This document shows, piece by piece, positions 8,840 to 12,755 of a stretch of 64,000 bases of DNA. The notes below the pieces were generated by a model, which made no database searches, had not been told where the DNA came from, and was given only the letters and a program-made list of their open reading frames with translations. The translations under genes and the position numbers were made by a program. The DNA comes from Propionibacteriaceae bacterium (GTDB lineage Bacteria; Actinomycetota; Actinomycetes; Propionibacteriales; Propionibacteriaceae): contig JAISUR010000037.1 of NCBI GenBank assembly GCA_031271975.1, forward strand, positions 186,001 through 250,000, given 5' to 3'. Positions within the stretch are counted from its first letter, which is position 1. The number at the start of each line of letters is the position of its first letter.

Positions 8840-9037
8840 TCAGCGCAGTTTGTCGGTCTCGTCGTGGATCCGCAGCGCCACTTGGTGCAGCTTGCTGGAA
8901 TGTGCCTTGGAGTGGTGCGCGCAGAAGAAGAGCTGCCCGCCAGAGGGCAGATCGACACGCACGTAGGCCTGGGCCCCGCAGCGGTCACAGCGGTCGGCGG
9001 CGGTCAGGCTCATCGTGTTGGCAATGTCGGTCTTCAT
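8840..9037 (-). CDS. Small zinc-ribbon-like protein (DUF7455-type)
   Basis: A 65-residue protein with CDRCGAQA, then FFCAHHSKAH, so Cys17/Cys20 and Cys39 with His41/His42 can bind zinc. Such proteins (LTAADRCDRCGAQAYVRV at the N-terminus) are widespread in actinobacteria next to topoisomerase or sigma genes. Function unknown. The ATG at 9037 has GGAG 5 nt upstream; an in-frame GTG lies two codons earlier. It ends 10 bases from the hydrolase gene and is divergent from parE. Confidence 0.75.
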   Translation of the reverse strand: MKTDIANTMSLTAADRCDRCGAQAYVRVDLPSGGQLFFCAHHSKAHSSKLHQVALRIHDETDKLR

Positions 9038-9094
9038 CTTCACTCCGTCGTTCGGTTGCTTCACTAACACATCCCAGGCTGGTTCTATTCCCCA

Positions 9095-9114
9095 CCAGTG
9101 TATGCATACCCTGG
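9095..9114. promoter_or_regulatory. 20-bp palindrome in the DUF7455-parE divergent region
   Basis: CCAGTGTATG/CATACCCTGG pairs at 9 of 10 positions around a GTATGCATAC core. It lies 63 bases before the parE start and 58 before the DUF7455 start, a place where a dimeric regulator could act on both. The regulator is not known, and it does not match a LexA box. Confidence 0.4.
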
Positions 9115-9176
9115 TAACCGAACACGCCAGGCGCGTCATGTTTTACCAGGTTGAAACTCGCCGGTACGCTGCTTTG

Positions 9177-11249
9177 GTGGACACTGCGAAGGTTGCCGTC
9201 GGGCACGACTACGAGGCGCGGCACCTGCTCGTGCTGGAAGGTTTGGAAGCCGTCCGGAAACGCCCGGCGATGTACATCGGCTCCACGGATACCCGCGGAT
9301 TGATGCACTGCCTGTGGGAGATCATCGACAACGCCGTGGATGAGGCCCTGGCCGGGTTCGGGCGCAACATCGAGGTGCTGTTGGCCGCCGACGGCTCGAT
9401 CAGCGTCTCGGACCACGCCCGCGGCATCCCGGTGGACGTGGAGCCCAAGACCGGGTTGTCAGGCGTGGAAGTGGTGTTCACCAAATTGCATGCGGGCGGG
9501 AAGTTCGGCGGCGGGTCGTACAACGCCGCCGGCGGCCTGCACGGCGTGGGCGCGTCAGTCGTCAATGCCCTGAGCGCCCGCCTGGACGTCGAAGTGGACC
9601 GCTACTCGGCGACGCACGCGATGAGTTTTCGGCGCGGCGTTCCGGGCGCGTTCGACTCAGACGGGCCGAATGCGGCCTTCACCCCCGGCTCTGGGCTGCG
9701 CAAGACCGGCAAGGTCTCGAAGAACACGACCGGCACCCGGGTGCGCTACTGGCCCGACCGGCAGATCTTCCTCAAAGACGCCCAACTCTCGCTCAAACAC
9801 CTGCTTGACCGGGCCCGGCAGACGTCGTTCCTGGTGCCGGGGCTGGAAATCTCCGTCCGCGACGAGCGGACGGCCGAAACGTATGCCGAGTCCTTCAAAC
9901 ACGAAGGCGGCATCTCCGAGTTCTGCGACTTCCTGGCCCCCGATCCGCCCGTGACGGACGTGCTGCGCTTGAAAGGCCGGGACCAGTTCACTGAGACCGT
10001 CCCGATGCTCGACGACAAGGGCGCCATGACCCCGACCGACGTTGAACGTGAACTTGAGGTTGACATCGCACTGCGCTGGGGAACGGGCTACGACACTACG
10101 TTGCGCTCCTTCGTGAACATCATCGCCACACCCAAGGGCGGTACCCACGTTTCGGGCTTTGAACGCGGCCTGACCAGGGCTTTCGTCAAGTCCCTGGAGG
10201 GCACGCGAATCCTCAAGTCCGGTGAGGAAGTGCTGAAAGAGGACGTGTTGGAGGGCCTGACCGCGGTGGTGACCGTGCGCATGGACGAGCCGCAGTTCGA
10301 AGGGCAGACCAAAGAGGTGCTGGGGACGCCGCCGGTGACGCGTTTGGTGGCGAAGATCGTTGAGGGCGAGCTGACAGACTACCTGACCTCCAACAAGGCG
10401 GCCACGCGGGCGATGGCGCGCACCGTGATGGAGAAAGTCGTCGCCGCTTCCCGGACCCGGGTCACCGCGCGGGCGCACAAAGAGGCGCAGCGGCGCAAGA
10501 ACGCGCTGGAGTCGTCCACACTGCCGGCGAAACTCGCGGACTGCCGCTCCAGTGACCTGGACCGCACGGAACTGTTCATCGTGGAGGGCAACTCCGCGTT
10601 GGGCACTGCCAAACTGGCGCGAGATTCCGAATTCCAGGCGCTGCTGCCGATCCGGGGCAAGATCCTGAACGTGCAGAAGGCGTCCGTGACCGACATGTTG
10701 AAGAACGTCGAGTGTGCCTCGATCATCCAGGTCGTCGGGGCGGGCTCGGGACGTTCCTTCGACATCGACCAGGCCCGCTACGCGAAAGTAATCTTCATGG
10801 CGGACGCCGACTCGGACGGCGCGCACATCCGCTGCCTGCTGGCCACGCTGTTCTTCCGGTACATGCGGCCCATGATCGAAGCGGGCCGCGTGTTCACCGC
10901 AGTCCCGCCACTGCACCGCTTCGAGCTGATCAACCCGAAGAAGGGCCAGGAGAAATACCTGTACACCTACTCGGACGCCGAATACCGGCGCAAACTGGCC
11001 GAGTTGACCAAGAAAGGCCAATCGTTCAAGGAACCGCAGCGCTACAAAGGCCTGGGCGAAATGGACGCGGACCAACTCGCCGAGACCACCATGAACCCCA
11101 GGTTCCGCACCCTGCGCCGCATCACCATAGACGAAGCCGAAGTGGCCGAAGCCACCTTCGAGAAGCTGATGGGCAACGACGTCGCCCCCCGCAAGGAATT
11201 CTTGATCGAGGGGGCCTACACGTTGGACGCGGACCGCATCGACGCCTGA
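9177..11249 (+). CDS. parE: DNA topoisomerase IV subunit B (ParE)
   Basis: A 690-residue type IIA topoisomerase ATPase subunit. The GHKL ATPase is visible (Glu48/Asn52 in EIIDNAVDEA; GGLHGVGASVVNALS), then the transducer, then a TOPRIM domain with EGNSALGTAK and DADSDGAH and the C-terminal YKGLGEMDADQL. It decatenates DNA together with ParC. The GTG at 9177 is chosen because TACGCT lies 6 nt before it as a leaderless -10 and homologues start there; an in-frame ATG at 9138 has no clear ribosome site. Convergent with the orphan ParC-tail gene, 3 nt away. Confidence 0.93.
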   Translation: MDTAKVAVGHDYEARHLLVLEGLEAVRKRPAMYIGSTDTRGLMHCLWEIIDNAVDEALAGFGRNIEVLLAADGSISVSDHARGIPVDVEPKTGLSGVEVVFTKLHAGGKFGGGSYNAAGGLHGVGASVVNALSARLDVEVDRYSATHAMSFRRGVPGAFDSDGPNAAFTPGSGLRKTGKVSKNTTGTRVRYWPDRQIFLKDAQLSLKHLLDRARQTSFLVPGLEISVRDERTAETYAESFKHEGGISEFCDFLAPDPPVTDVLRLKGRDQFTETVPMLDDKGAMTPTDVERELEVDIALRWGTGYDTTLRSFVNIIATPKGGTHVSGFERGLTRAFVKSLEGTRILKSGEEVLKEDVLEGLTAVVTVRMDEPQFEGQTKEVLGTPPVTRLVAKIVEGELTDYLTSNKAATRAMARTVMEKVVAASRTRVTARAHKEAQRRKNALESSTLPAKLADCRSSDLDRTELFIVEGNSALGTAKLARDSEFQALLPIRGKILNVQKASVTDMLKNVECASIIQVVGAGSGRSFDIDQARYAKVIFMADADSDGAHIRCLLATLFFRYMRPMIEAGRVFTAVPPLHRFELINPKKGQEKYLYTYSDAEYRRKLAELTKKGQSFKEPQRYKGLGEMDADQLAETTMNPRFRTLRRITIDEAEVAEATFEKLMGNDVAPRKEFLIEGAYTLDADRIDA

Positions 11250-11252
11250 GCC

Positions 11253-12257
11253 TCATCCCAGGGCGCGAGACCCTATTGCCGCCAGGCGCAGCGTGCCTTT
11301 TACGCCGGCGCCGTCGCGTTTGGGGTCGGCCGGTGGCAGGTTGGACGGGGAACCGGTCTTGGTGGCTGCGATGGCGGGGGGATTGCCGACCCAGGCGAGC
11401 AACAGCGTGTCTTCGCCCTTCAGGAAGCGGTGGGCGCGCACTCCGCCGGTGGCGCGGCCTTTTTCCGGGAAGGCACTCAAAGGGGTGACTTTGACCGAGC
11501 CGGGCGCGTCGGAGCTGAAGTTCGACTTGCGGCCCGCATTGGTCACGACCACCGCTTCGGCGACGCTCGCCGCGCCGAAGAAGATGGCTTCTTGTACCGG
11601 ATCGAGTTTGATGCCGACCATTCCGCCGCCCGCGCGGCCCTGGGGACGGACGGCGGTCGCGGGATAGTGCAACAGTTGCGCGTCGTTCGTGATGAAAACC
11701 AGATGTGGGTGGTCGTTCGGCAACTCGACAGCGCCTACCACTTCGTCGTCGCCTTCGAGGCGGATGATCTCCCAGGAATCCTGGCCGCGCGGCATCTCCG
11801 GGTTGGTGCGCTTCACCACGCCGTTGCGGGTGCCGAGTGCCCAGCCGAAGGTGCGGGCCGTCAGTGTCGTCAACGCGATGACACGCTCGAAGGGGGCCAG
11901 GCCGACCGCGTTGGACGCCAGGATCGCACCCTGCAAATTCGGGGCTTGGTCGGTGACGGGGACTTCGGGAAGGGCGCTGGCGGACATGCGGTAGATCCGG
12001 CCCAGGTTGGTGATCACGCCATACTCGTCGTCGCAGTTGACCGCGGAGATGATCACGTCGTGGGTGGTGCGCCCGCCCTTGGCGGGCAGTGGGCCTGCAG
12101 ACTCCCAACGGCCGAGCAGCCCGGCCGAACTCAGCAGGACCCAGCGCGCCCCGGCCGCGGCCGGCGCAGGAGAAGAGGGCCGAGTGCCCAAGATGGCGTC
12201 GATTTCAGCGATGCGGGCTACCAGCCGGGCCCGTTCCGCAACCAGGTCTTCACTCAC
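11253..12257 (-). CDS. Orphan ParC/GyrA C-terminal beta-pinwheel protein
   Basis: A 334-residue protein that matches the tail of the neighbouring ParC (12892-15327) almost end to end: WVLLSSAGLL, FGWAxGTRNGVVKRTNPE, VRPQGRxGGGMxGIKL, GRATGGVRxxRFLKGEDTLLLAW. Residues 1-22 also resemble the end of ParC's coiled coil. The winged-helix, tower and catalytic Tyr are absent, so it cannot cut DNA. Beta-pinwheels wrap DNA and set the enzyme's substrate choice, so it may bind DNA or modulate topoisomerase IV (inference). TAATCT lies 7 nt before the GTG, suggesting a leaderless transcript of its own. Confidence 0.85.
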   Translation of the reverse strand: MSEDLVAERARLVARIAEIDAILGTRPSSPAPAAAGARWVLLSSAGLLGRWESAGPLPAKGGRTTHDVIISAVNCDDEYGVITNLGRIYRMSASALPEVPVTDQAPNLQGAILASNAVGLAPFERVIALTTLTARTFGWALGTRNGVVKRTNPEMPRGQDSWEIIRLEGDDEVVGAVELPNDHPHLVFITNDAQLLHYPATAVRPQGRAGGGMVGIKLDPVQEAIFFGAASVAEAVVVTNAGRKSNFSSDAPGSVKVTPLSAFPEKGRATGGVRAHRFLKGEDTLLLAWVGNPPAIAATKTGSPSNLPPADPKRDGAGVKGTLRLAAIGSRALG

Positions 12258-12282
12258 GCAGCCCAGATTATCGCGTTTGGGT

Positions 12283-12305
12283 GGGGCGGCCCGGTGGGCC
12301 GCCCC
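12283..12305 (-). terminator. GC-rich hairpin after the Ig-like secreted protein gene
   Basis: A perfect 10-bp stem GGGGCGGCCC/GGGCCGCCCC with a 3-nt loop lies 10 bases beyond the stop of the 12315-12755 gene. There is no T run, so it is an unclassical terminator. Confidence 0.55.
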
Positions 12306-12314
12306 AAACAGCCG

Positions 12315-12755
12315 CTACTTGTGCCCGACCTTGGCCGTCGGCAGCGAATAACGTGTCTTGGCGCGGTAGCCGGACTTGGTAGCCGTGGCGTGCACGGTGA
12401 GACGGTGGCCGACATCCGCCTTGGTCAGCTTGTAGGTGGCTCCGGAACCGACGGACTTCGACTTGCCCGAACGGAACCACTGGTACCGGACTTTGCCCGG
12501 TTTCGGCGACCAGCCGGACACAGTGGCCTTCAATTCCTGGCCCTCGGTCGCCTTACCCGTCACCTTCGGCCGCGGCGTCTTGGTGAACGCCTTGGACGTG
12601 GGCTTGGACTTGGCTTTGGCCACGGGTTTGGCCGTCGTAACCCGGATGTGGCGGACCGGGTCGGGCACTTTCGCCTGTGCGGGCATGGCGCCGGCGACGG
12701 GCAGGACGGCCAGGGCCGCGACGGTGGCCACGGCGCGCAGCAAATTGCGTTTCAT
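12315..12755 (-). CDS. Small secreted protein with one Ig-like repeat
   Basis: A 146-residue protein. Residues 1-28 form a signal peptide (MKRNLLRAVATVAALAV..., likely cut after AQA). A Lys/Thr/Pro linker follows, then one repeat of about 75 residues with the pattern PKVTG...GQELKATVSGW...VRYQWFRSG...YKLTKADVGHRLTVHATATKSGY. This Ig-like module is frequent in actinobacterial cell-wall and surface proteins and is usually attached to another domain; here it is alone. GGGAG lies 6 nt before the ATG. Role unknown; it sits between the orphan pinwheel and parC. Confidence 0.7.
   Translation of the reverse strand: MKRNLLRAVATVAALAVLPVAGAMPAQAKVPDPVRHIRVTTAKPVAKAKSKPTSKAFTKTPRPKVTGKATEGQELKATVSGWSPKPGKVRYQWFRSGKSKSVGSGATYKLTKADVGHRLTVHATATKSGYRAKTRYSLPTAKVGHK

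Follow-up and report, generated by a model that had tools for sequence, protein, structure and literature searches.

Positions 11,253 to 12,257 of this DNA raise the question of why a gene for little more than the C-terminal domain (CTD) of ParC stands between parE and an intact parC gene, and whether it is a remnant of a duplication or encodes a protein with a role of its own. We analyzed this gene, designated FSa, within the whole 64,000-nucleotide stretch (hereafter the window) and compared it with relatives in the genus, the family, and the class.

Gene content of the parE-parC interval

The first-pass annotation had described a free-standing ParC β-pinwheel of 334 residues without a cleavage core. 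Open reading frame analysis and Pfam searches bore this description out and assigned the gene to the minus strand (Table 1); the frame contains no internal stop codon, in keeping with the claim that it has been kept open. The product matched DNA_gyraseA_C (PF03989) with 62.5 bits, above the curated membership cut-off of 27, and gave no Pfam match to the DNA_topoisoIV cleavage core (PF00521), which carries the catalytic tyrosine and for which the adjacent ParC scored 506 bits. With NF004044 it scored 73 bits against a cut-off of 654, below the level that defines topoisomerase IV subunit A (ParC). FSa and parE are arranged tail to tail, the intact parC gene is located 0.6 kb upstream of FSa on the same strand, and a separate, normal GyrA is present in the same genome.

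Table 1. Features of FSa and its surroundings, in window positions
Feature	Position	Strand	Remarks
parE, convergent with FSa	9015..11249	+	stop 3 bp from FSa stop
Stand-alone ParC C-terminal domain gene (FSa)	11253..12257	-	334 aa, GTG start; PF03989 only
β-Pinwheel codons (residues ~38-334)	11256..12147	-	conserved R63, R204/R208, R268, R314
N-terminal helix codons (residues 3-24 + linker start)	12183..12251	-	similar to ParC coiled coil 444-468
Putative -10 element TAATCT + 7-nt spacer directly before GTG	12258..12271	-	leaderless promoter layout
GC-rich inverted repeat GGGGCGGCCCaccGGGCCGCCCC	12276..12310	-	between 146-aa gene and FSa; read directly from sequence
146-aa secreted Ig-like (AIR9 domain) protein	12315..12755	-	between parC and FSa
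parC, complete (core + own CTD), 815 aa	12892..15339	-	profile matches

BLASTP aligned FSa with the adjacent ParC at 58% identity and 70% similarity over 295 aa (E 7e-110). An alignment along the whole length with the last ~330 residues of ParC had been claimed; this holds for the pinwheel, where the match is unbroken (ParC 519-812), but the alignment is not continuous, because ~50 ParC residues between the helix and the pinwheel are missing from FSa and a linker of ~14 residues is found instead. The N-terminal helix, LVAERARLVARIAEIDAIL, resembles the final part of the ParC coiled coil (residues 444-468), and a profile of the N-termini of FSa and its orthologs (four sequences, described below) matched one place in many ParCs (SR-LEAER---L). 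A scan of viral contigs returned two short matches only, both to this helix, in the C-terminal ends of small, unrelated phage proteins (L177 1246-1575 and L178 1168-1566, ending in ER--LVARIAEIDAI), a likeness that probably reflects a convergent coiled coil. Since unrelated phage proteins carry similar helices, the sequence of the FSa helix is partly that of a generic coiled coil, and the resemblance is only suggestive of the ParC coiled-coil origin proposed earlier.

The inverted repeat upstream of FSa is a possible terminator lacking a T-run, and it was not picked up by the terminator scan. The gene for the AIR9 domain protein was absent from the corresponding place in two genomes with an FSa ortholog (G013 and G020), and this protein is therefore probably outside the FSa system. 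An Ig-repeat-like protein is encoded near the end of parC in another genome of the genus, G011 (L121 4579-5910).

Relatives, origin, and selection

Among 30 genomes sampled from the genus, FSa orthologs were present in four species, namely the source genome (G000), G013, G014, and G020, with 61-64% identity. The ortholog of G013 starts about 26 bp downstream of parC; that of G020 lies between parC and parE, with its stop codon overlapping the parE stop; and that of G014 is located away from parC and parE and is apparently split over two contigs. The gene adjoins parE in two species. No ortholog was found in the close relatives G017 and G011, and FSa is missing from most of the genus, so its role is dispensable at the genus level. 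A fragment in G011 (C81) was rejected as a fifth ortholog since a contig break divides ParC there and the fragment is its C-terminal end. Contig ends cut off short frames in G005, G190, G139, and G128, as well as the frames C190/C196 in G194/G200; these were read as truncated ParC rather than stand-alone tails. The interval between parC and the ortholog of G020 holds a small toxin-antitoxin-like pair and an SppA-like peptidase (L041 3035-5101; genes called by eye); the parC-parE interval therefore seems to collect insertions.

The four FSa proteins formed one clade (support 100/100) nested in the ParC proteins of the genus and the neighboring Propioniciclava (99/97), with the hosts' own ParC nearest to it, and a placement of FSa outside all ParC was rejected (p-AU 0.0096). 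Because the tree places FSa inside the ParC of the genus, the phylogeny identifies it as a within-genus duplicate of parC. In G017, parE and parC are tail to tail and 182 bp apart, an arrangement from which a tandem duplication with 5' loss in the inner copy would give that of FSa. Such an origin had been proposed by the first-pass annotation, and it agrees with the tree, the layout in G017, and the position of FSa beside parE in two species.

Pairwise codon models yielded ω values of 0.055 (G000-G013) and 0.043 (G000-G014) with dS already high; for the other pairs dS was saturated or at its bound and is unusable as a number, and ω = 1 was rejected in every pair. The dN of FSa was about 1.2-1.8 times that of the CTDs of the hosts' ParC. 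As four species carry FSa with ω of about 0.05 and near-saturated synonymous sites, these data indicate purifying selection rather than a decaying duplicate. Absence from all relatives combined with relaxed selection had been named as grounds for abandoning the original proposal; instead, relatives carry FSa under constraint.

Across 198 genomes of the family, second copies were confined to the genus of FSa and one other genus, g28. In the latter, a stand-alone tail of ~295 aa that lacks the N-terminal helix is encoded by 13 of 19 genomes (partial or of uncertain start in two of them). These genes occupy another location, near bioY/ecf transporter genes in most genomes with comparable flanks, as exemplified by L160 4252-5133 (G095) with orthologs in L158, L159, and L161-L170. 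A TAGACT element precedes six of the 10 examined genes by 32-54 nt, a ribosome-binding site is present before several, and the close pair G194-G200 gave an ω of 0.029 at a dS of 0.72. Joint monophyly of the FSa and g28 clades was weakly rejected (p-AU 0.031), and grouping of the g28 clade with its hosts' ParC also was rejected (p-AU 0.012); with long branches in both tests, two separate origins of stand-alone tails are favored but not proven.

In the class sample, 195 genomes gave a match and only the source genome gave two. No further stand-alone ParC CTD was found in the rest of this sample, a result that copies below the E-value limit or in unsampled genomes would escape. As judged from the match list, no stand-alone tail was identified among phage and plasmid matches, most of which were partial with 24-30% identity and many of which belong to unannotated records. 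The 8.3-kb unannotated record MT837316.1 ("Bacteriophage sp.") showed 49.5% identity over 87% of the FSa query and may be misassigned bacterial DNA.

Promoter layout and predicted fold

The promoter element attributed to FSa in the first-pass annotation, TAATCT 7 nt before GTG, is present. In all four orthologs, TANNNT precedes the start codon by 6-7 nt (TAATCT-7-GTG, TATCCT-7-ATG, TATATT-6-ATG, and TAAGAT-7-ATG), where the spacing in G013 and G014 hinges on the choice between two near start codons. The background frequency is 0.5-1.2%, with 0.5% for this layout before ATG/GTG in the window. The shared -10 layout fits leaderless transcription of FSa from a putative promoter of its own. A sigma-70 promoter scan detected nothing before FSa, as expected for a -10-only layout.

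AlphaFold2 modeling with 39 sequences predicted a confident pinwheel (mean pLDDT 90.4) preceded by a helix at residues 3-24 (pLDDT ∼91) and a disordered linker at residues 25-34; the model of a protein from the g28 clade was also confident (pLDDT 90.5). Foldseek searches with the FSa model returned 20 significant matches, all of them GyrA/ParC tails or holoenzymes. The best were GyrA/ParC CTDs (4g3n, E 9e-17; 1wp5, E 1e-14), and the MukB-topoisomerase IV structure 4mn4 was among the 20.

The QGRAGGG motif of FSa had been taken for a degenerate GyrA box. That assignment is corrected here: the motif aligns with the blade-4 loop of the GyrA from the same genome (RPMGRATSG), and the GyrA box is missing from FSa, in which the blade-1 position reads LPAKGGR versus QKRGGKG in that GyrA. 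In Salmonella GyrA, six arginines have been linked to DNA wrapping (PMC7210945). In an alignment read by eye, FSa has counterparts of the GyrA DNA-path arginines in blades 1, 4, 5, and 6 (R63, R208, R268, and R314, respectively), as does ParC; the blade-2 arginine is missing from both, and blade 3 carries a P[RK] insertion (156-157) peculiar to the clade. A comparison with 51 ParC sequences singled out 13 positions that are invariant in the FSa clade and rare in ParC, including four lineage-specific gains of basic residues in the pinwheel (R/K157, R243, K/R300, and R324). The pI is 6.6-8.8 in the three complete FSa copies versus 5.3-5.9 in the hosts' ParC tails. Net charge is near neutral in these three copies and the incomplete G014 copy is acidic (-11 over 267 aa); as calculated from these sequences, the basic shift is not uniform across copies.

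Candidate functions and known systems

The closest known precedent for FSa is Gac, the free GyrA C-terminal domain of Borrelia burgdorferi (Knight & Samuels 1999, cited by PMC10127594). Gac is made from an internal gyrA promoter, binds DNA, and represses ospC (PMC10127594); whether its separate production is unique to that species is unknown according to the authors of that paper. The reading that we prefer, and to which we give an even chance, is that FSa is a neofunctionalized partial duplicate of parC acting as a Gac-like DNA-bending, nucleoid, or regulatory protein in trans. By this account, parC would have been duplicated beside parE in the ancestor of a few species of the genus, and the copy on the parE side would have lost its cleavage core, kept a coiled-coil helix and the β-pinwheel, and gained its own leaderless promoter. 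In the predicted fold, FSa is a free pinwheel joined by a flexible linker to a short N-terminal helix, which possibly serves self-association; we infer that the protein is expressed and would bind, bend, or wrap DNA as a nucleoid-associated or regulatory protein. Counting against a Gac-like role are the missing GyrA box and blade-2 arginine, the uneven charge shift, and the lack of FSa in most of the genus. ParC CTDs are weaker DNA binders than GyrA CTDs.

FSa could instead modulate topoisomerase IV, as the first-pass annotation had suggested; by competing with the ParC tail, or supplementing it, in contacts with T-segment DNA or a partner (for example, SMC), the free pinwheel would tune decatenation. 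In E. coli, the contact between topoisomerase IV and MukB runs through the ParC tail. The E. coli enzyme is described in PMC8523169 as binding the MukB hinge, and a complex of the two is among the fold matches of FSa. The ParC ancestry of FSa, its 58% identity to the ParC tail, and its retention beside parE in two species are also consistent with this role, but we regard it as rather unlikely given that, where context is visible, the gene is away from parC and parE in G014 and in the g28 clade, that FSa has its own promoter element, and that its helix lacks an antiparallel partner and the linker joining tail to core is missing.

Considerably more doubtful is a function in which FSa, as decoy or antidote, counters a toxin, phage protein, or drug aimed at the ParC tail. 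Stand-alone target mimics are a known general strategy and FSa closely resembles its own ParC tail, but FSa has no defense-family match, no defense or mobile context adjoins it, and its clade-specific changes are unlike those of a faithful mimic; we know of no agent aimed at the ParC tail in this group. Least probable of all is a non-functional leftover of the tandem duplication, open by chance, which could account for the absence of FSa from most of the genus, including G017 and G011, and for its somewhat faster evolution than the ParC tail, but which is largely refuted by intact copies in four species, near-saturated synonymous sites with ω of about 0.05, invariant pinwheel residues, and the common promoter layout.

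The first-pass annotation had counted a published function among the grounds for withdrawing its proposal; a limited search, with subscription literature mostly outside it, found neither such a function for a stand-alone ParC tail nor any publication on a gene of this kind. We consider it possible, at somewhat less than even chances, that ParC tails became free-standing on two or more occasions in related Propionibacteriaceae and gave rise to a new nucleoid-associated or regulatory class, paralleling Gac by way of gene duplication rather than an internal promoter. FSa is an independent case of a stand-alone tail of a type IIA enzyme, in another phylum than Borrelia and with ParC, not GyrA, as its source. 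Being encoded separately, it could be deleted with the topoisomerase left intact, unlike the overlapping Borrelia gene, and the apparent second origin in g28 provides a natural replicate.

Compared with ParC CTDs (1wp5, 1zvt), FSa shares the fold, the identity to its own ParC tail, and the conserved blade loops; it differs from ParC in having no cleavage core, tower, or linker, and in its own gene and promoter element and its clade-specific residues. With GyrA CTDs (4g3n, 5ztj), it shares the pinwheel and four of the six DNA-path arginine positions, whereas identity in structural alignments is 18-21% and the QRRGGKG box is absent. Like Gac, FSa comprises nothing but a type IIA A-subunit pinwheel tail (plus one helix in FSa), accompanies the full-length subunit, and has its own promoter (a putative element in the case of FSa). 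Gac is GyrA-type and read inside gyrA, whereas FSa is a separate parC-derived gene that has neither an internal start nor a GyrA box. Gac has been demonstrated to bind DNA and repress transcription, whereas for FSa the comparison covered the conservation of residues.
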